Numbered from the stretch's first letter, positions 52,189 through 64,000 are shown. The stretch: 64,000 nt of DNA from Methanosarcina vacuolata Z-761 (GCF_000969905.1 NZ_CP009520.1:186001-250000); one strand, 5' to 3'. A program made the numbers and translations. The notes: generated by a model not told the origin, from the sequence alone.

Positions 52189-55038
52189 ATGGGGAAGAAT
52201 CTGACTGGCGATAACAGCAAGATTTGTTCGCCCCAGGGGAACGAGCACAGTATTCCACTTTCGGTTTTTCTTCAAAAACTAGGGGTTGACGAAAACGGAC
52301 TCCGCGATCAGGAGGCTGCCAGTCGGCTCAAAGAATGCGGAGCGAATATTCTTGAGGAAACAGGAAAAGAGAGCATAATTAAAAAGTATCTCAGGCAGTT
52401 TCGGAATTTATTCTCGATCCTGTTAACTGTGGGATTTATTCTGTCTTTCATTGGAGAATACATTGATCCAGGGAAGGGAAACCTGTATATAGGAATTGCT
52501 CTTGCAGGCGTTGTAGTCATCAATGGGACCTTTACATTCATACAGGAGTACCAGGCTGAAAAAACAATGGAAAGCTTTCGTCAGCTTCTTCCGCCCCATG
52601 CCAGGACCCTGAGGGAAGGAAAGGTAAAGGAGATTCTGGCATCGGAGCTTGTGGTAGGAGACGTCATCCTTCTTGAGGAAGGAGATAAGGTTCCTGCCGA
52701 TGGGCGTTTGATTGAAATTAATACTCTGAAAGTGGATAACTCGGCTATTACTGGCGAATCCGAGCCTCAGCTTCGGTCCCTTGAATGCACTCATCCAAAT
52801 ATGCTGGAGTGCAGAAACATGGTTTTCTCAGGGACTCTGATACAGAGCGGGAATGGAAAAGCTGTTATCTTTGCCACTGGACAAAATACTCAGATCGGAA
52901 GCCTTGCAACACTCACACAACAGACTTCGGGCGTGGATACTCCCATTCGAAGAGAAATAAATTATTTCATAAAAGTCATATCTACAATTGCGATTTCCCT
53001 GGGAATAGTTTTCTTTATACTTGCTTCTCTTCTTCAGGATGTTTTTCTTACGAGCCTGATCTTTGCGATTGGAATTATTGTCGCCAATGTGCCTGAAGGA
53101 CTTTTGCCCACAGTCACTCTTGCCCTTAGCCTTGCGTCCAAGCGAATGGCTTCGCGGAATGCCCTTATAAAACAGCTTGAGTCCGTAGAAACTCTGGGCT
53201 CGACAACGGTTATCTGTACGGATAAGACCGGTACCCTGACTCAGAATAAGATGGCAGTAAACTCTATCATGATCGGTTTTGAATGTCTCGTTCTCGAAAA
53301 CCCTGCCAGCACTAAAAAAACAATCACAGAACAGGACATCAGCGAAAGTACAAACAAAGCGGATGTGGAAAAACTTGCAGATTCAGGGGCAGAAGAATTC
53401 TGTGCCCTAAAAAAACCTGTATGGGACCCTGAAAAATTGCCCTCTGTTTTCATAAGAGTTTCAGGGCTATGTAATAATGCAAAACTTCGCGAGTCTGCCC
53501 CGGGATATACCGGTGACCCAACCGAAGGCGCACTTCTCGTTTTTGCAAATGGCCTGGAGGATATCGGAAAGCTTAAACATGATTATCCGAGGCTGGAAGA
53601 ATTTCCTTTTGATTCGCTGACCAAAAGAATGGAAGTTATCTGCCGCACTCCGGAAGGAAAACTTGAAGTTTATCTCAAGGGCGCCCCGGAAGTAGTTGTG
53701 AAAATGTGCAGTTCATCCCTGGATTCAGGAGGGACCCGGAAGCTGGATGAAACTGAGCAACAGGAGCTTCTTAACCGGCACCTGAACCTTGCAAAAAAAG
53801 GAGAACGAATTATAGCCCTTGCGTACAGGCCGATAGAAGAACTAAGGGAATATACAGGGGACTTCATCTTCCTGGGATTTGTAGGAATTGTAGATCCTCC
53901 ACGCCCTGAAGCCAGAGAAGCTATAGCAAAGTGCCATACAGCCGGGATCAAGGTTGTCATGATCACAGGCGATCACTCTGTCACTGCAGAATCAATAGCA
54001 AAGGATGTGGGACTTGCAAACTCCGGAAACCTGGAGATTATTACCGGAAATGAACTGGCAACGCTATCACGCGCAGACCTTGCTTCAAGATTAAAAAATC
54101 CGAGCATTGTCTTTGCCCGCACTTCTCCTGTACAAAAACTGAAAATTGTAAAGCTCTTTCAGGCCGAAGGGGAGATAGTGACCATGACAGGAGACGGGGT
54201 AAATGATGCTCCTGCAATCAAGAATGCGGATATGGGCGTTGCTATGGGCAGCGGTACGGATGTGGCGCGCGAAGCTGCGGATATGGTACTCCTTGATGAC
54301 AATTTCGCTACGATTGTGAATGCTGTAGAAGAAGGCAGGACGGTTTTTGATAATATTAAAAAATTCATCGTATACATCCTTGCCAGCAATATTCCTGAGA
54401 TCCTGCCTTTCATAGCCTTCGTCCTCTTTGCCCTGCCCCTTCCCATGCCTGTACAGCTGATCCTGGCAATCGACCTGGGCACGGATATGCTGCCTGCGAT
54501 TGCCCTGGGAAAAGAAAAAGGGGAAGGAGATATTATGAAAAGACCTCCCAGAGCGAAAGAAGAAAAGCTTTTGACTCCTCCTCTGCTTTTTACAGCTTAC
54601 GCAATAAAGGGTCCTGTAGAAGCTATTGCAGGCTTTTTCTGTTATTTTGCCGTACTTTTTGAGGGGGGCTGGAGTTTTGGAGAGCAGCTTGCAAATAACA
54701 ATCCCCTTTATATGCAGTCAATAACCGCTTTCTTTTCAGCAGTGATTATATGCCAGATTGCTAATGTTTTTGCTTCCCGAACACGTTATCAATCAGTCTT
54801 CTCAATGGGTTTATTCAGCAACCGTACTGTCCTGGTAGGAATTGCAAGTGAACTCTTGATTCTGGCATTTATTATCTGGAATCCGTCGGCAAATCTTATT
54901 TTCAATACTTCTCCTCTTGACCTCAGATATTTGCTAATTGCTGTTCCTTTTGCGATATTATTGCTCGGAATCGATGAATTAAGAAAATATCTGTTGAGAA
55001 AGAATGTAATCTGGGTGACCAGATACCTTAAGTGGTAA
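52189..55038 (+). CDS. P-type cation-transporting ATPase, IIC (Na+/K+-ATPase)-like
   Basis: The protein (949 residues) has all P-type features: an N-terminal cation-ATPase domain, the actuator loop TGESEP, the phosphorylation site CTDKTGTLTQNKM, KGAPEVV in the nucleotide domain, and TGDGVNDAPAIKNADMGVAM in the hinge. Ten membrane helices are predictable. Helix 4 reads VPEGLLPTVTLALSLASKRM, which is the IIC (Na+/K+- and H+/K+-ATPase) form rather than the VPEGLP(A/V)V form of Ca pumps and bacterial IIA. Type IIC enzymes are known in Methanosarcina and are thought to help in Na+/K+ balance. Transport ions cannot be fixed by eye. Single gene; GGGG site before the ATG. Confidence 0.92.
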   Translation: MGKNLTGDNSKICSPQGNEHSIPLSVFLQKLGVDENGLRDQEAASRLKECGANILEETGKESIIKKYLRQFRNLFSILLTVGFILSFIGEYIDPGKGNLYIGIALAGVVVINGTFTFIQEYQAEKTMESFRQLLPPHARTLREGKVKEILASELVVGDVILLEEGDKVPADGRLIEINTLKVDNSAITGESEPQLRSLECTHPNMLECRNMVFSGTLIQSGNGKAVIFATGQNTQIGSLATLTQQTSGVDTPIRREINYFIKVISTIAISLGIVFFILASLLQDVFLTSLIFAIGIIVANVPEGLLPTVTLALSLASKRMASRNALIKQLESVETLGSTTVICTDKTGTLTQNKMAVNSIMIGFECLVLENPASTKKTITEQDISESTNKADVEKLADSGAEEFCALKKPVWDPEKLPSVFIRVSGLCNNAKLRESAPGYTGDPTEGALLVFANGLEDIGKLKHDYPRLEEFPFDSLTKRMEVICRTPEGKLEVYLKGAPEVVVKMCSSSLDSGGTRKLDETEQQELLNRHLNLAKKGERIIALAYRPIEELREYTGDFIFLGFVGIVDPPRPEAREAIAKCHTAGIKVVMITGDHSVTAESIAKDVGLANSGNLEIITGNELATLSRADLASRLKNPSIVFARTSPVQKLKIVKLFQAEGEIVTMTGDGVNDAPAIKNADMGVAMGSGTDVAREAADMVLLDDNFATIVNAVEEGRTVFDNIKKFIVYILASNIPEILPFIAFVLFALPLPMPVQLILAIDLGTDMLPAIALGKEKGEGDIMKRPPRAKEEKLLTPPLLFTAYAIKGPVEAIAGFFCYFAVLFEGGWSFGEQLANNNPLYMQSITAFFSAVIICQIANVFASRTRYQSVFSMGLFSNRTVLVGIASELLILAFIIWNPSANLIFNTSPLDLRYLLIAVPFAILLLGIDELRKYLLRKNVIWVTRYLKW

Positions 55039-55500: not shown

Positions 55501-58500
55501 ATGAACGTTAGTAGAAAGATCCTTGCTATTATCTATATCATCTTTGCTCTTCTCATTTCAGTTGTTATTTTTGCGTCTCAGAGCATTCTCGGTTCCACTT
55601 TTTCCGACTTGCAGGAAAAAGAGGCAGCTGACAACGTAGAAAATATAGAGAATATGATTAATCTTCAGGTCCTACAACTTGAGAAGATTAATTCTGCTCT
55701 CTCTTCAAGAGATGATGTCAGGAATTTAATACTTAATCCGGACCCTCAAAATCTCAGCAGTGGGACTTCACTCGGTGACATCTTTTCCGTCAGTGGATGT
55801 GATTTTATTTTTCTGGTAAATAATTCAGGGTATATTGTGTATTCTGAAATTTCGGGTCCTGAGCTCTCTACTCTTAATGCTTCTACTCTTGATGCTTCCT
55901 CTCTTAATTCTTCTACTCTTAATGCTTCCTCTCTTAATTCTTCTACTCTTGATGCTTCTTCTCTTAGTGCTTCCTCTCTTAGTGCTTCTTCTCTTAATGC
56001 TTCTACTCTTGATGCTTCTACTCTTGATGCTTCTTCTCTTAATGCTTCTACTCTTAGTGCTTCTACTCTTGATGCTTCTTCTCTTAATGCTTCTACTCTT
56101 AGTGCTTCTACTCTTGATGCTTCCGCTCTTCTCAAAGTCCGTCAAAGAATTAATGATGGCAGTTTACTCTGTACGGGGGCTGAAACTTCTTTAAAAGGTA
56201 TACTACTGTTTGAAAATGGTCTTGCAGTAATCTCCGGCCAGCCTGTGCTCACTTCGCCAGAAAATAACGAAGTCTCAGGGACAATCATTCTTGGAAAATA
56301 TCTTGATTCGAGCTTTATCGAATCCGTTCAGGAAAGTACAGGAAGTACATTTACAATTTCCAGTTTCAACAATGCGTCCTCGGATCTTATGCAGGCTTTT
56401 TTTGAAAACCCTGGTCCGAACTTCACATATGCGGTAACTGGAGAAAACGTTACCTGTTATTCTGTGCTTGAGGATTTTTCTGGAAGGCCAGCTATTGTAA
56501 TCCAGGCTGGCGCAGACAGCAGTATCTATGCCAGGGGTCAGAAGGCTCTCAGATACATAGTGTTTTTCCTTCTGTTCGCAGGCCTCATGATTGGGGCAAG
56601 TTGCAAGGTTCTTCTTGATAGGGAGGTGGTATCCCGAATAGTTGCAATTGATAATTTCGTGGAGAAAGTAAGACTGAATGAAAATTTCTCCGAGCGATTT
56701 TCTACGTATGGGAATGATGAGCTCTCAAGGCTGTCCGAAGGAATAAACCAGACCCTTGACCGCCTGAGAACTACTTCTGATGAATTTAAAGCCCAGGAAC
56801 ACGAAAAAAAGCTAATTCTTGATTCTCTCAGTGAACTGGTAGTCTTTATGGACTCCGACTTGAAGATAATCTGGCTAAATAAAGCAGCTCTTGATCACAT
56901 GGGCATGAAAATGGGTGACGTTATCGGGCGTCGTTATCAAGATATGTATATTTTATATAAAGAAAACCCGAGTAAGTCACCGGTACTGAAAGTACTGGAG
57001 TCCGGGAACGAAGAATTCGGGGAAGTAGTTACGCAGGATGGAAAAGTCTGGACAGTCACTGCGATTCCCATAAAGAACGAAGATGGCAGGATTACAGGGG
57101 TCCTGAAAACAGGGCTTGATATTACTGCACACAGGCGTTCGGAAGAAAAACTAATTCAGGCAAAACTGGAAGCTGAAGAAGCAAACAATTTCAAGAGCGA
57201 ATTTCTTGCAAATGTGAGCCATGAGTTGCGGACACCTTTGAATTCCATTATAGGTTTTTCAGATATTCTTATTGACAAAGTTTTTGGAGAACTTAACGAA
57301 AAGCAGTTCCGATACGTAAACAATATCTCAACCAGTGGGAAACATTTGCTGGTACTTATAAATGATATCCTCGATCTCTCAAAAGTAGAAGCCGGGAAAA
57401 TGGAACTTCACTACAGTGAATTTTCGATTGATTGCGTTTTTGAAGAAGTTAAAGCCGTTCTCTCCCCTCTTATACAGGTAAAATCTCTTGAAGCAACTTT
57501 TAATGTAGAATCCGACTGTACAACGCTTGAAGCCGACAGAGGCCGCATAATTCAGATTCTTTACAACCTCGTAAGTAATGCAATAAAATTTACCCCGAAT
57601 GGTGGGAAAGTCTCAGTATATTGCAAAGAAAGTGGAAACCGGGCGCTTATTTCAGTCATAGATACCGGTATAGGCATTTCTGCTGAAGACCAGGTAAAGC
57701 TTTTCAAGCCCTTTACCCAGCTCGATGCATCAACAACAAGGCAGTATTGCGGCACAGGACTTGGGCTTGCTCTTGTGAAGAAAATCGTGAACTTGCACCA
57801 GGGAGATATCTGGGTTGAGAGCGATCCTGGGAAAGGTAGTAACTTTACCTTTTCACTTCCTCTCAGGAAACCGCTGGAGCTCAGAAAAGCTGGGATTGAA
57901 GATGTAATCATAGAATTCGAAATGAATAAAGCAGAAGCCCTTTCAGTAAAAGAAAACGTTGAGGATTTGCAGGAAGAAGTAGAGCTGCCCGAAATCTGTT
58001 TCTCTGAAAAGGGAGATGTTAAGCAGGAACTTATTCTGGTAGTTGATGATGACAAAAGTTCCAGTGAACTTCTCTCCATTATCCTTAAGGACGCAGGATA
58101 TAGTGTGGCTCTCCTTTATAATGGAAAAAGAGTTTTAAAGGTTGCAAAGATCCTGAAACCCGATATTATCACCCTGGATGTTTTCCTGCCAGATACTAAT
58201 GGCTGGCTTGTCCTGAGGCAGCTAAAGAATGACCCCTGTACGGCTTCTATACCTGTACTTATTATCTCCATGACCAATAATAATGAGCTCGGAATTACCC
58301 TCGGAGCAACCTACTCTTTTGCAAAACCGGTAAAAAGAGTTGAACTGGTAAATTCTCTCCAGGAAATTACCGGAAAGTTCCGGTTTGAATATCCTAAAGT
58401 TCTTATAGTAGATGACGATGAAAATACTGTAGAACTGTTGAGTTCGATGATTGAGCCCGAGGGCTTTGAGGCTATAAAAGCTTACAGCGGGAGAGAAGGT

Positions 58501-58812
58501 CTTCAGAAGCTTTTCTCAGAGCAGCGTCCCGATATTCTGATTCTTGACCTCATGATGCCGGAAATTAGCGGATTTGATGTTATATCCAGCATGAGGGCCG
58601 ATGTACGCACGAAAGATATACCTCTTATTGTATGCACTTCTGGCGAGCTTACTGAGAAGAATCTCGAAGAACTGAACAGTGAGCTAAAAGGACATCTTAT
58701 TTCTATTCTGAAGAAAGGCACTTTTGGAAGAAAAGAGTTAATTAATATCATAAAACAATTAGCTATGCTGAAGAGGCGTAATGATGAAAAAAATCCTGAT
58801 TGTCGAAGATAA
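55501..58812 (+). CDS. hybrid sensor histidine kinase with pentapeptide-type repeat in the sensor domain
   Basis: An 1103-residue membrane kinase. TM1 is at ~7-28 and TM2 at ~351-371, enclosing a large extracellular CHASE4-like region. Residues ~122-212 of that region consist of 17 tandem pentapeptides of the form S(S/T)L(N/D/S)(A/S). After TM2: HAMP (~372-425), PAS (~437-545), HisKA with phospho-His at ~574 (ANVSHELRTPLNS), and an ATPase domain (NAIKFTPNGG, DTGIGI, GTGLGLALVKK). Two receiver domains follow, with Asp in TLDVFLPD (~893) and LILDLMMPE (~1016). A stand-alone receiver gene overlaps its 3' end. It responds to an outside signal; output is phosphorelay. The repeat is very unusual in such a sensor. 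Confidence 0.92.
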   Translation: MNVSRKILAIIYIIFALLISVVIFASQSILGSTFSDLQEKEAADNVENIENMINLQVLQLEKINSALSSRDDVRNLILNPDPQNLSSGTSLGDIFSVSGCDFIFLVNNSGYIVYSEISGPELSTLNASTLDASSLNSSTLNASSLNSSTLDASSLSASSLSASSLNASTLDASTLDASSLNASTLSASTLDASSLNASTLSASTLDASALLKVRQRINDGSLLCTGAETSLKGILLFENGLAVISGQPVLTSPENNEVSGTIILGKYLDSSFIESVQESTGSTFTISSFNNASSDLMQAFFENPGPNFTYAVTGENVTCYSVLEDFSGRPAIVIQAGADSSIYARGQKALRYIVFFLLFAGLMIGASCKVLLDREVVSRIVAIDNFVEKVRLNENFSERFSTYGNDELSRLSEGINQTLDRLRTTSDEFKAQEHEKKLILDSLSELVVFMDSDLKIIWLNKAALDHMGMKMGDVIGRRYQDMYILYKENPSKSPVLKVLESGNEEFGEVVTQDGKVWTVTAIPIKNEDGRITGVLKTGLDITAHRRSEEKLIQAKLEAEEANNFKSEFLANVSHELRTPLNSIIGFSDILIDKVFGELNEKQFRYVNNISTSGKHLLVLINDILDLSKVEAGKMELHYSEFSIDCVFEEVKAVLSPLIQVKSLEATFNVESDCTTLEADRGRIIQILYNLVSNAIKFTPNGGKVSVYCKESGNRALISVIDTGIGISAEDQVKLFKPFTQLDASTTRQYCGTGLGLALVKKIVNLHQGDIWVESDPGKGSNFTFSLPLRKPLELRKAGIEDVIIEFEMNKAEALSVKENVEDLQEEVELPEICFSEKGDVKQELILVVDDDKSSSELLSIILKDAGYSVALLYNGKRVLKVAKILKPDIITLDVFLPDTNGWLVLRQLKNDPCTASIPVLIISMTNNNELGITLGATYSFAKPVKRVELVNSLQEITGKFRFEYPKVLIVDDDENTVELLSSMIEPEGFEAIKAYSGREGLQKLFSEQRPDILILDLMMPEISGFDVISSMRADVRTKDIPLIVCTSGELTEKNLEELNSELKGHLISILKKGTFGRKELINIIKQLAMLKRRNDEKNPDCRR
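55864..56135. repeat. 15-bp coding tandem repeat (pentapeptide array)
   Basis: About 17-18 copies of a 15-base unit such as TCTACTCTTGATGCT or TCTTCTCTTAATGCT, in frame. Copies differ by single bases in a patchwork that suggests expansion by slippage or unequal exchange. All other frames are open over it too; they are artefacts of the repeat. Confidence 0.95.
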
Positions 58813-60140: not shown

Positions 60141-61013
60141 TTATTTTTTTCCCGTAGCCAATACATAACCCACATATTTTGAGGTTAATTTCTTTCGGAA
60201 TAAAATTTTTTTACTTTTTTCCAGTCTTTTGAACCTGTATCGGACCTTTTTGCTTAAGAAGTAGTACTTAGCCATTTTCGAGATCGTGTCTATAAGGTAC
60301 TTTATAAAGCTCCAGGTCCCTCCCATCGCTTCTGCCATGTATTTTGTTTCCTGAAGGTACCGGATAGGTTTGCACATTCTTACATTAACATCTTTCAGAC
60401 CTGCTCTTTCAAGTTCTTCTTTCCATTCTTCAGGCGACAGCAGGGAAAATGGAAGTCCTGTTATTTCTCCAATTATTTTTTCGGCTTGAGCAATTTCTTT
60501 GGCGGCTTTAGCAGGAATCTCCTTTTCTCTATACATTTCGTTAATCCCCACATAAGCCCCAAACCTCAGAACCCTTGCGAATTCTTTGAAAGCTGTTTCC
60601 CTATCTAAAAACTGGGACACAAACTCTGTTATCACGGCATCGAAAGCCCCTACTTCAAAGGGCAGGGCGTGAGCATCCCCTACTATGAATTTTGCTTTGT
60701 CCGAAACTCCCTGGTTTTTTGCCCTTTCTTTTGCTTCCTCAATCGAAAGTTTTGAAATATCAATTCCTACTACCTCACAGCCGATTTCTCTGGCAAGGTA
60801 ACAGGCAGAAAAACCGCTTCCACATCCAACCATCAGGACTTTTTTTGTAGAGTCAATCCTGCATAATTCAGCAAGTTTTCTGGTGGAGGTAAGGCCGCCT
60901 ACATGATAATAAGGTACTCCCAGATAACTCATAAAGTCATAATATCCCAGAGCTTCGGCTTGTTTAACTGAAAGTTTTTGTTCTCTGTGTGGAATGTTTC
61001 TCTCTGCCTGCAT
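60141..61013 (-). CDS. class I SAM-dependent methyltransferase
   Basis: The protein (290 residues) has a SAM-binding Rossmann domain: motif I KKVLMVGCGSGFSACYLARE, acidic strand EVVGIDISKLS, FIVGDAHALPFEVGAFDAVI (motifs II-III) and RVLRFGAYVGINEMYREKE after it. About 70 C-terminal residues rich in Lys/Arg and aromatic residues (SKMAKYYFLSKKVRYRFKRL) suggest contact with membrane or a lipid/quinone-type substrate. It begins 44 bases after the small subunit of the complex I-like cluster, on the same strand, so is probably in that operon. Substrate unknown; a methyl transfer to a membrane carrier is one possibility. Confidence 0.85.
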   Translation of the reverse strand: MQAERNIPHREQKLSVKQAEALGYYDFMSYLGVPYYHVGGLTSTRKLAELCRIDSTKKVLMVGCGSGFSACYLAREIGCEVVGIDISKLSIEEAKERAKNQGVSDKAKFIVGDAHALPFEVGAFDAVITEFVSQFLDRETAFKEFARVLRFGAYVGINEMYREKEIPAKAAKEIAQAEKIIGEITGLPFSLLSPEEWKEELERAGLKDVNVRMCKPIRYLQETKYMAEAMGGTWSFIKYLIDTISKMAKYYFLSKKVRYRFKRLEKSKKILFRKKLTSKYVGYVLATGKK

Positions 61014-61056: not shown

Positions 61057-61575
61057 TCAGTTCTCATTTTCCTTATTTTTTACCAGGGCAAAGATCCCGC
61101 GCAGGATTTCTTTTGGAGAGGGAGGGTTTCCAGGAATTTTTATATTCACAGGCAGGATTTTATCGACTCCGCCAAGTACGGCATAAGAGCCCTTATAAAT
61201 CCCTCCGTCACAGGCATCATCCCCGACTGCGACCACGAATTTAGGAAAGGGCATGGCTTCATAGGTTTTTAGAACGGCTTCGGCCATATTCAGAGTGACT
61301 GCACCTGTAACCAGCAGGACATCAGCATGCCTTGGGGAAGCCACAAAAGAGATCCCAAATCTCTCAACATCATAATGCGGGGCTCCGAGGTTTGAAACCT
61401 CAATTTCTGTTGAATTGTCGCTGCCTGAATCCAGTTCGCGGATTGCAAGGCTGTGCCCGAAAACCCTGTTGACTTTAGTTCTCAGTTTGGAGCCTAGAGA
61501 TTCAAGTTCACTATCTGAAAACTCAAATTTTTCCGTTACTTTCGGACGGAAGACGTATGTAAGTGGGTTTACCAT
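61057..61575 (-). CDS. complex I/group 4 hydrogenase-like small subunit without cluster ligands
   Basis: A 172-residue NuoB/HycG/EchC-type subunit. The family frame is clear: HSLAIRELDSGSDNSTEIEV (normally GSCNGCE), ADVLLVTGAVTLNMAEAV (VTGPVT..), FVVAVGDDACDGGIYKG (GDCAC.GG) and VNIKIPGNPPSPKEIL (IPGCPP). All four cysteines that bind the proximal [4Fe-4S]/N2 cluster are replaced (C to D, T, D and N). I start at the ATG at 61575, behind GAGGTGA; a 10-residue longer frame overlaps the upstream gene. It pairs with the large subunit encoded directly upstream, which has also lost its metal ligands. It cannot carry the usual electron path. Confidence 0.85.
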   Translation of the reverse strand: MVNPLTYVFRPKVTEKFEFSDSELESLGSKLRTKVNRVFGHSLAIRELDSGSDNSTEIEVSNLGAPHYDVERFGISFVASPRHADVLLVTGAVTLNMAEAVLKTYEAMPFPKFVVAVGDDACDGGIYKGSYAVLGGVDKILPVNIKIPGNPPSPKEILRGIFALVKNKENEN

Positions 61576-61585
61576 CCATTTCACC

Positions 61586-63277
61586 TCAGAGATCAGTTCC
61601 AGCATAGGAAAGGTTAAAGCTCTTATTTATCAGAGGAAAATCAGGAACAATATTCCCGAGCACTGCATGTTCTATGGCCTGCCAGTTGCAGAAGGAGGCT
61701 GTTCTCACCTTATAGCGGTCGATTAGCCCGCTTCTGACATAAACCCAGTGAAGGTTCTGTCCCCGTGCAGCTTCAACCATTGAAAGGGCATATCCATCTG
61801 GAATATTTGAAATTGAAAATTCGGTTGTCTCGGAAATGATTGCGCCTTCCAGGATTGACGCTATAAGTTTCTTTATCAGAGAAGCTGAGTTAAGAACTTC
61901 GGCAGCTTTAACCTCAAACCGAGAAAGGACATCGCCTGCCATTTTAATTGCTCTTTCCGGAGGCATATCTTTGTATATACAGTAGGGATGGTCAAGTCTG
62001 ACATCATATGTAGCTCCGGCCGCCCGAGCAATAGGGCCTGTAAGATTAAGCGGAGCTATCAATTTCTTTTTTAAAACTCCGGTTGTTGAAAATCTGTCAA
62101 TAAGTGACGAGGAAGTATAAACAGCGGTAATCGCGGATTCAAATTGTGGTACAAATATTTTCAAATAAAGGTCGAGTTTTGAAAGAGATTCGCCTGAAAT
62201 CTCCTTTTTTACTCCTCCTATATCTATAGTGCCTCTCATAAATCGGGAGCCTGTGAGAAACTCGTTTTGCCTGAAAATATTTTCACGGAGGATAAGGAAA
62301 GGCGTTGTCATTCTCGGAAATCCTATATCGGTAATCATGCCCGAGAGATCTCCCATATGCGAGTAAATGCGCTCGAGTTCCAGGAGAATAGCCCTTAAGT
62401 AGTTCGCTCTTTCCGGAATTTCAATTCCCGCAATTTTTTCTACGGCCGTACAGAAGGCAACGGCATTGGAAACGGTCTCATCCCCACTTATTGCCTCCGC
62501 AATAGGAATACAGGCAGAGGGGCTTTTTCCCTCGGCAAGCTTTTCGATTCCCCGGTGTTTATAAAAGAGCCGGATTTCGAGATTGAAGATTGGTTCTCCG
62601 ATGACACTGAACCTGAAATGTCCAGGCTCAATAATTCCTGCATGTACAGGCCCGACAGGGATCTGGTAAACGCCGTCTCCCTCTAGCTGTTTAAAAGGAT
62701 ATGCTTCCTCCGGGCTTTCAACAGTCTGGATTTTCCTGTTTTTAAAGGATTTAAGGAGAGGATGAAAGCCTTCAGGATAGGCCTCATGTAAAAAGAGTCT
62801 TCTTTTGTCAAAAGCATCTGTAAATTCTATACCAAATCCGTCCCGAATTTCCCGTTCATACCAGCATGCCGAAGGAAAAACCGTGGCAATAGATGTAGTT
62901 TCCTTTCTGACATGCCGCATAAACGCAAATACGTCAGTAGAACTGTTCATTCTGAAGATATAAAAGAGAGTAAAACCAGGTTTTCCTTCTAAATCCTGAA
63001 CGCAGAACAGACTTGTCAGGATAAAACCCTTCTCGGAAAGCGCAGGTACGGTTTTTAAAAACTCCTCTTCTGCCAGGGGGATATAGAATTCATTATTTTT
63101 TCCCTTTTCGATCTGCGGCTCTTTACCTGCAATGTCAATCATTAAATCTGTAGCGTGCCGGGTCGCCAGAACCGAAGGAGTCTCCAAAACTGCAGAATTA
63201 CCTGAAATCTGGTAATTCCCTCTTAATTTCGGGCCTGCCGGCATCAGGGAACTTACTGTGTCTTTGTTTGAACTCAT
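61586..63277 (-). CDS. complex I/group 4 hydrogenase-like large subunit, fused NuoC-NuoD type, without NiFe ligands
   Basis: A 563-residue fusion like HycE. The N-terminal third is a 30-kDa (NuoC) domain with CWYEREIRDGFGIEF and RRLFLHEAYPEGFHPL. The rest is a 49-kDa/hydrogenase large-subunit domain with VGPVHAGIIEPGHFRF, HRGIEKLAE and LLELERIYSHMGDLSG. The first NiFe motif, normally RxCGxC, reads AISGDET; the last, normally DPCxxC, reads SFNLSYAG at the C-terminus. No hydrogenase active site is possible. The start ATG at 63277 has GGGAGG nine bases upstream; a frame six codons longer begins at the stop of the antiporter gene. It fits the energy-converting hydrogenase-related (Ehr) type. Confidence 0.87.
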   Translation of the reverse strand: MSSNKDTVSSLMPAGPKLRGNYQISGNSAVLETPSVLATRHATDLMIDIAGKEPQIEKGKNNEFYIPLAEEEFLKTVPALSEKGFILTSLFCVQDLEGKPGFTLFYIFRMNSSTDVFAFMRHVRKETTSIATVFPSACWYEREIRDGFGIEFTDAFDKRRLFLHEAYPEGFHPLLKSFKNRKIQTVESPEEAYPFKQLEGDGVYQIPVGPVHAGIIEPGHFRFSVIGEPIFNLEIRLFYKHRGIEKLAEGKSPSACIPIAEAISGDETVSNAVAFCTAVEKIAGIEIPERANYLRAILLELERIYSHMGDLSGMITDIGFPRMTTPFLILRENIFRQNEFLTGSRFMRGTIDIGGVKKEISGESLSKLDLYLKIFVPQFESAITAVYTSSSLIDRFSTTGVLKKKLIAPLNLTGPIARAAGATYDVRLDHPYCIYKDMPPERAIKMAGDVLSRFEVKAAEVLNSASLIKKLIASILEGAIISETTEFSISNIPDGYALSMVEAARGQNLHWVYVRSGLIDRYKVRTASFCNWQAIEHAVLGNIVPDFPLINKSFNLSYAGTDL

Positions 63278-63295
63278 TTTCTTTTTGCCTCCCAT

Positions 63296-64000
63296 TCACA
63301 GGTATCCAAGTTCGTACACGATTATGTTCAACAGTTTTTCCAGAGGTTCCGGAAAGACAACTCCAAGGGCCAGAATCATAAAAAGAATGGACAATATTGG
63401 AAATTTCATGCCTCCTCGGACTGTATAGGGGATAATCGGAGTTTCCGTGCCTTCGGTTCCAGCATCTTTCGAGCTCTGGGTAAAGGCTTCGATTAAAAAT
63501 CTTGCAAATGCAGCCGACGCTATGACCAGGAGGAGGAGAACTGCAAAGACAAGCGGTTTCGAAAATCCGAAAGCTTCCAGCAGGATAAAAAATTTGGCCG
63601 AAAAAATCGGGAAAGGAGGCATGCCTATGATTGCAAAGCTACCAATAACAAAGCCCCAGCCTGCAACGGGCTGAAGTGAAAAAACATCTTTTATGTCCTT
63701 AATCAGGTTACTTTCGTATTGCCTGTGTAGAATGCCTGCCGAAAAAAAGAGTGAGGCTTTGGTCAGTGAGTGGGCAAGGATGTAAAAAAGTGTCCAGAAG
63801 AGAGCAAGAGGCGTTCCAATCCCTATTCCAAGGAGGAGAATGCCCATGTGTTCCACACTTGAAAATGCAATCAGCATCTTCAGGTTTTTCTGCAAAAGCA
63901 TATTCAGGACCGCAACTGTGATGGTAAGCAGGCCAAAACCCAGAAGGAACTGAGATATCATAGTCTCGGCCTGAGTCTGCCTGACAATTGCGTACATCCG
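63296..64000 (-). CDS. NuoM/N- or HyfF-type antiporter-like membrane subunit, partial
   Basis: The C-terminal ~235 residues of a proton-antiporter-like subunit (Proton_antipo_M). MLIAFSSVEHMGILLLGIGI and FYILAHSLTKASLFFSAGIL carry the conserved His/Lys of the channel, and FAIIGMPPFPIFSAKFFIL is the next family helix. The gene runs off the right edge, so its start is outside the window. It ends with TGA directly abutting an ATG frame of the large-subunit gene, so translation is coupled. Its intact channel residues contrast with the lost metal sites in the two following genes. Confidence 0.9.
   Translation of the reverse strand, partial: RMYAIVRQTQAETMISQFLLGFGLLTITVAVLNMLLQKNLKMLIAFSSVEHMGILLLGIGIGTPLALFWTLFYILAHSLTKASLFFSAGILHRQYESNLIKDIKDVFSLQPVAGWGFVIGSFAIIGMPPFPIFSAKFFILLEAFGFSKPLVFAVLLLLVIASAAFARFLIEAFTQSSKDAGTEGTETPIIPYTVRGGMKFPILSILFMILALGVVFPEPLEKLLNIIVYELGYL

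Follow-up and report, generated by a model that had tools for sequence, protein, structure and literature searches.

Which function can be kept by a relative of respiratory complex I whose two catalytic subunits carry none of the residues that bind metal? The question is raised by an operon at the right end of a 64,000-nucleotide stretch of DNA (hereafter the window) from Methanosarcina vacuolata Z-761 (GCF_000969905.1 NZ_CP009520.1:186001-250000). The initial annotation held that both catalytic subunits had lost every metal ligand and that this was not decay. Both claims are confirmed here and are strengthened by homologues from several phyla, by dN/dS and by phylogenetic trees. Two points go beyond it, namely that the complex is not specific to methanogens and that half-way forms with only one of the two metal sites exist. 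The loss of electron transfer is strongly supported, while a function in ion translocation is inferred.

The operon lies on the minus strand and codes for six proteins in the order B (644 aa), C (313 aa), E (232 aa), F (492 aa), G (569 aa) and I (182 aa), counted from the promoter side, which is the HyfB-C-E-F-G-I order. Only I, G and half of F are found inside the window, whose edge is passed by a further 4.3 kb of the operon in which E, C and B are intact. Searches with Pfam and NCBIfam profiles identify two proton-antiporter-type subunits (B and F), a NuoH-like subunit (C), a hydrogenase-4 membrane subunit (E), a fused NuoC-NuoD protein (G) and a NuoB-like protein (I). Note that B and F exceed the curated cut-offs of the NCBIfam "hydrogenase membrane subunit" models (NF006418, NF006427), and thus the membrane genes belong to a family already named as hydrogenase parts. 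The E. coli formate hydrogenlyase (7z0s) is the nearest solved relative for G, C and B, while no solved relative of the HyfE-like subunit was found by sequence. Coordinates are listed in the table below.

Features of the operon and of its surroundings (window numbering unless another sequence is indicated; loci designated L were retrieved in this study, L002 being the operon locus of the window's genome).
Feature	Position	Strand	Remarks
HyfI/NuoB-like small subunit (I)	61057-61605	-	PF01058, 89 bits; homologues starting MVNPL suggest a true start at Met11, about 61575
Codon 63, Asp at proximal-cluster ligand 1	61417-61419	-	Asp in 71 of 71 homologues
Codon 66, Thr at ligand 2	61408-61410	-	Thr, Ala, Pro or Val in homologues
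Codon 130, Asp at ligand 3	61216-61218	-	Asp, or Glu in two homologues
Codon 160, Asn at ligand 4	61126-61128	-	Asn in all but one homologue, which has Asp (70/71)
HyfG/HycE-like fused NuoC-NuoD large subunit (G)	61586-63295	-	PF00329 and PF00346; best solved relative HycE 7z0s_E, E 1.5e-65
Codons 270-273, SGDE at the NiFe L1 site	62477-62488	-	C-x-x-C in hydrogenases
Codons 563-566, SYAG at the NiFe L2 site	61598-61609	-	C-x-x-C in hydrogenases
HyfF-like antiporter subunit (F)	63296-64000	-	continues to 64774 in genome numbering; NF006427, 667 bits (cut-off 511)
Subunit E	64774-65472	-	beyond the window's edge
Subunit C	65469-66410	-	beyond the window's edge
Subunit B	66407-68341	-	beyond the window's edge
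SAM-dependent methyltransferase	60141-61013	-	downstream; variable neighbour, probably not a subunit
Sensor histidine kinase	55501-58812		tandem five-residue repeat in the sensing part
Type II P-type cation ATPase	52189-55038		best NCBIfam match Na,H/K antiporter type, below cut-off
DDE transposase	L002:8773-10443		about 430 bp upstream of B
Operon in genome G549	L144:7917-15075		G549 has the length of D. mccartyi 195
Second B-C-E-F operon, Altiarchaeales contig	L153:1473-6499		beside the full operon in L046
NiFe-keeping Chloroflexota-class operons	L135:8131-10789, L136:4619-7058		NuoI-NuoB fusion
Fused NuoI-like/NuoB-like protein	L075:6961-7788		cluster-keeping sister clade
Universal-stress-protein-like gene	L074:5501-5932, L075:6520-6951, L076:1792-2226		directly follows I in cluster-keeping sister operons

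Alignment of I and G to proteins of solved structure places the substitutions exactly. In the small subunit the NuoB motifs SCANGG and PGCPP become DDACDGG and PGNPP, and by comparison with the CNGC motif of group 4 hydrogenases its first two ligand positions are Asp63 and Thr66. In the large subunit the HycE motifs CGIC and DPCYSC become SGDE and NLSYAG, leaving Ser270, Glu273, Ser563 and Gly566 at the four NiFe cysteines. The ligands have not shifted elsewhere in the sequence. The only conserved cysteine of I is Cys132, which is found two residues after ligand 3 and is also present in relatives that keep the cluster, while the commonest cysteine of G is Cys536. The predicted structures are otherwise ordinary. 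The small subunit model matches NuoB chains (Z about 20, rmsd 1.5 A over 132 residues) and the large subunit model matches E. coli HycE 7z0s_E (Z 42, rmsd 2.1 A over 463 residues). Model confidence is moderate (mean pLDDT 82 and 78, respectively) and is low in the small-subunit loop around residue 63 and in residues 198-247 and 562-569 of the large subunit, the last of which covers the C-terminal former NiFe positions, so that the models say little about those sites. No ferredoxin (NuoI), NADH or F420 module is encoded in the operon.

The operon belongs to a conserved family. Searches of Methanosarcinaceae, of the window's phylum, of two other classes and of GTDB species genomes gave homologues in Methanosarcina, Methanoregula, Bathyarchaeota, Altiarchaeales, Woesearchaeota, a Thermoplasmatota MAG and Dehalococcoidia. 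Several are on single-contig bacterial genomes, so metagenome mis-binning cannot explain the bacterial copies. None of 71 distinct small subunits keeps a ligand cysteine (the window protein enters the tabulated counts twice), and the large subunit has S-E-S-G at the NiFe positions in all but two sequences, C-E-S-G and G-E-S-G, from one divergent genus. In every locus that has both genes I follows G directly (median gap of 10 bp), with no ferredoxin gene between them. The dN/dS values between the window genes and six or seven relatives are about 0.06-0.19 for all six genes, showing purifying selection.

The relatives of this clade include two half-way forms. Some Methanosarcinaceae and other Methanosarcinales genomes, and a Methanocella-type genome, carry the same B-C-E-F-G-I order with the NiFe ligands lost (S..N, S..G). 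These sister operons (L074, L075, L080-L084, L140, L152), whose large subunit showed 43-46% identity in its own search, keep CN(G/A)C, GxCA, PGCPP and a two-cluster NuoI-like subunit, separate or fused to I, so that electrons can still reach the proximal cluster. The mirror image is found in two Chloroflexota-class genomes (L135, L136), in which the large subunit has all four NiFe cysteines but the small subunit has acidic residues at most proximal-cluster positions (E-C-E-D and D-T-E-D) and is fused to a NuoI-like ferredoxin with one degenerate cluster motif. They code for a predicted hydrogenase with a broken electron wire. The clade with neither site is monophyletic in the small-subunit tree (100/99) and when ligand columns are masked in both subunits (99 and 99). 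A simple order of loss, NiFe first and cluster second, is not certain. L135 and L136 group with the window clade in the full small-subunit tree (90/79), but with ligand columns masked it is the NiFe-less clade that groups with it (85), and the large-subunit tree leaves a three-way split. Cluster loss may thus have happened twice.

The complex is a metal-free branch of the broad Ehr group. Ehr complexes (energy-converting hydrogenase-related; Coppi 2005; Marreiros 2013; PMC4378227, PMC6349859, PMC10284858, PMC7304191) are known to have a hydrogenase-4-like gene set with antiporter-like, NuoH-like, large and small subunits, to lack the NiFe cysteines and not to be hydrogenases. Additional loss of the proximal-cluster cysteines and of NuoI was not found described in the papers examined, among which Marreiros 2013 could not be included. 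Hyc and Hyf share fold and subunit types with the present complex, but have the NiFe site, the proximal cluster and the NuoI-type subunit. Fpo and Nuo share the fold of the NuoB/NuoCD arm and the membrane-arm residues, but keep the N2 cluster, a quinone or phenazine site and an electron-input module. Mrp Na+/H+ antiporters carry out redox-free ion transport with MrpA/MrpD-type subunits related to B and F (6z16 and 7qru), but have no NuoH, NuoCD or NuoB homologue, and no MnhG-type gene (PF03334) is detectable in the window's genome.

Residues that carry ions in complex I and Mrp are invariant across phyla: Glu140, Lys217, Lys248 and Glu400 in B; Glu133, Lys220, His335 and Lys339 in F, where Lys394 is near-invariant; Glu192, Asp199, Glu206, Glu212 and Glu217 in the NuoH-like C; and Glu171 and Glu189 in E. 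The TM7 lysine of B is kept although E. coli HycC has alanine at this position, while F has Asn251 at the TM8 lysine position. Most likely, although held with no more than moderate confidence, the complex is a redox-free secondary cation/proton translocator of the Mrp kind (Na+/H+ exchange driven by the existing ion gradient), whose former hydrogenase arm is a structural cap or gate. In this model the old proximal-cluster pocket has become an acidic site (D63, D129, D130, N160) that holds the arm shape and may bind protons or a cation to signal to the NuoH-like carboxylate channel. The direction of transport, the ions and the regulation are inferred, no biochemical data were found, and the modelled chains were folded alone and give no pocket geometry. 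Of the functions put forward in the initial annotation, a regulated antiporter fits best, while a complex-I-type quinone site is not supported because Gly271 aligns with the quinone-site tyrosine of NuoD, probably Tyr87 in T. thermophilus, in our reading of the alignment to 2fug_4. One Altiarchaeal contig carries, next to a superoxide dismutase gene, a second intact B-C-E-F operon with neither G nor I. This hints that the membrane part can serve alone, but it was seen in one MAG only. All nine Methanosarcina genomes positive for the Mrp marker PF03334 have the complex (9/9 against 10/22; Fisher p 0.005) and none has Mrp without it. The association is not corrected for phylogeny, which confounds it, and shows co-occurrence, not replacement of Mrp. 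The cytosolic arm is as conserved as the membrane arm, which is more than a passive cap needs, and may bind or convert something.

How electron transfer in complex I moves protons far away in the membrane is still argued over, and a conserved relative that kept the arm and the ion paths but dropped every redox centre is a natural experiment on which parts are needed for ion movement. A broader and more tentative proposal is that of a widespread family of complex-I-type machines without any redox centre. Ion movement would be coupled through the same carboxylate channel and peripheral arm as in complex I, but driven or gated by something other than electrons through an acidic switch in the former N2 pocket.

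Among the alternatives, the one that survives best, though it is unlikely, is that the arm still catalyses a reaction without metal, the large-subunit cavity binding an organic substrate or cofactor (flavin, nucleotide, thiol, CO2/bicarbonate) whose binding or chemistry drives the pump conformationally. The cavity-lining residues S270, G271, D272 and E273 and the C-terminal NLSYAG(T/N)D(L/M) are almost fixed, and the small subunit is more conserved (70% mean column identity) than the large one (58%). However, there is no cofactor-binding motif and no conserved partner enzyme gene, and no known complex-I relative works this way. It is more doubtful that the acidic pocket binds another metal (Mg, Mn, Ca, Zn) or an unusually ligated FeS cluster. 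Three of the four former ligands are D, D/E and N/D in nearly every homologue, D129 is next to them, and L135 and L136 also have D/E at most of these positions. Yet the variation at position 66 makes a four-ligand site unlikely, no cysteine pair is conserved nearby, and NuoI and the NiFe site are gone as well. An assembly or regulatory decoy that joins subunits of another complex I-like enzyme (Fpo, Ech, Nuo), without translocating ions itself, is improbable: host genomes do also carry Fpo and Ech or Nuo, but the complex is a complete six-subunit set with intact ion paths that is inherited as a unit across several phyla. Decay of a hydrogenase is refuted for the family by the dN/dS values and by substitutions fixed across phyla, although G is split in two in relatives L012/L039 and frame-disturbed near its 3' end in L024/L066, and part of the genus lacks the operon.

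The complex should not be called a hydrogenase, which bears on the annotation of Dehalococcoides, where hyc is counted among five hydrogenase types (PMC2930330) and DET1570 is called "hydrogenase, group 4, HycG subunit" (PMC5102406). Genome G549 has five PF01058 proteins. One matches the Hup position, two lie beside weaker large-subunit (Ech/Nuo-type) matches, one is a larger soluble-type protein, and the fifth is the metal-free one at 1,411,946, where DET1570 is expected. The only candidate for the Hyc hydrogenase is thus the present complex, which cannot make or use H2 at a metal site. The name is probably wrong, with the reservation that this identification is by elimination and position and not by accession.

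The surroundings of the operon do not identify a functional partner. Flanking genes (FilR1-like regulator, histidine kinases, P-type ATPase, RibD-like reductase, ABC transporter) are conserved only within Methanosarcinaceae, and no redox partner gene is conserved next to the operon across phyla. The P-type ATPase gene is found near the operon in most Methanosarcina and a homologue also lies near that of L060, an indication too weak to use. The methyltransferase gene is present near the operon in only some Methanosarcinaceae and is broken in L007/L048. In the window's genome the transposase gene, which possibly affects the operon's promoter, is found where relatives have the RibD-like gene. The repeat of the sensor histidine kinase (A/S-S/T-L-N/D/S-A/S) covers about residues 123-210.
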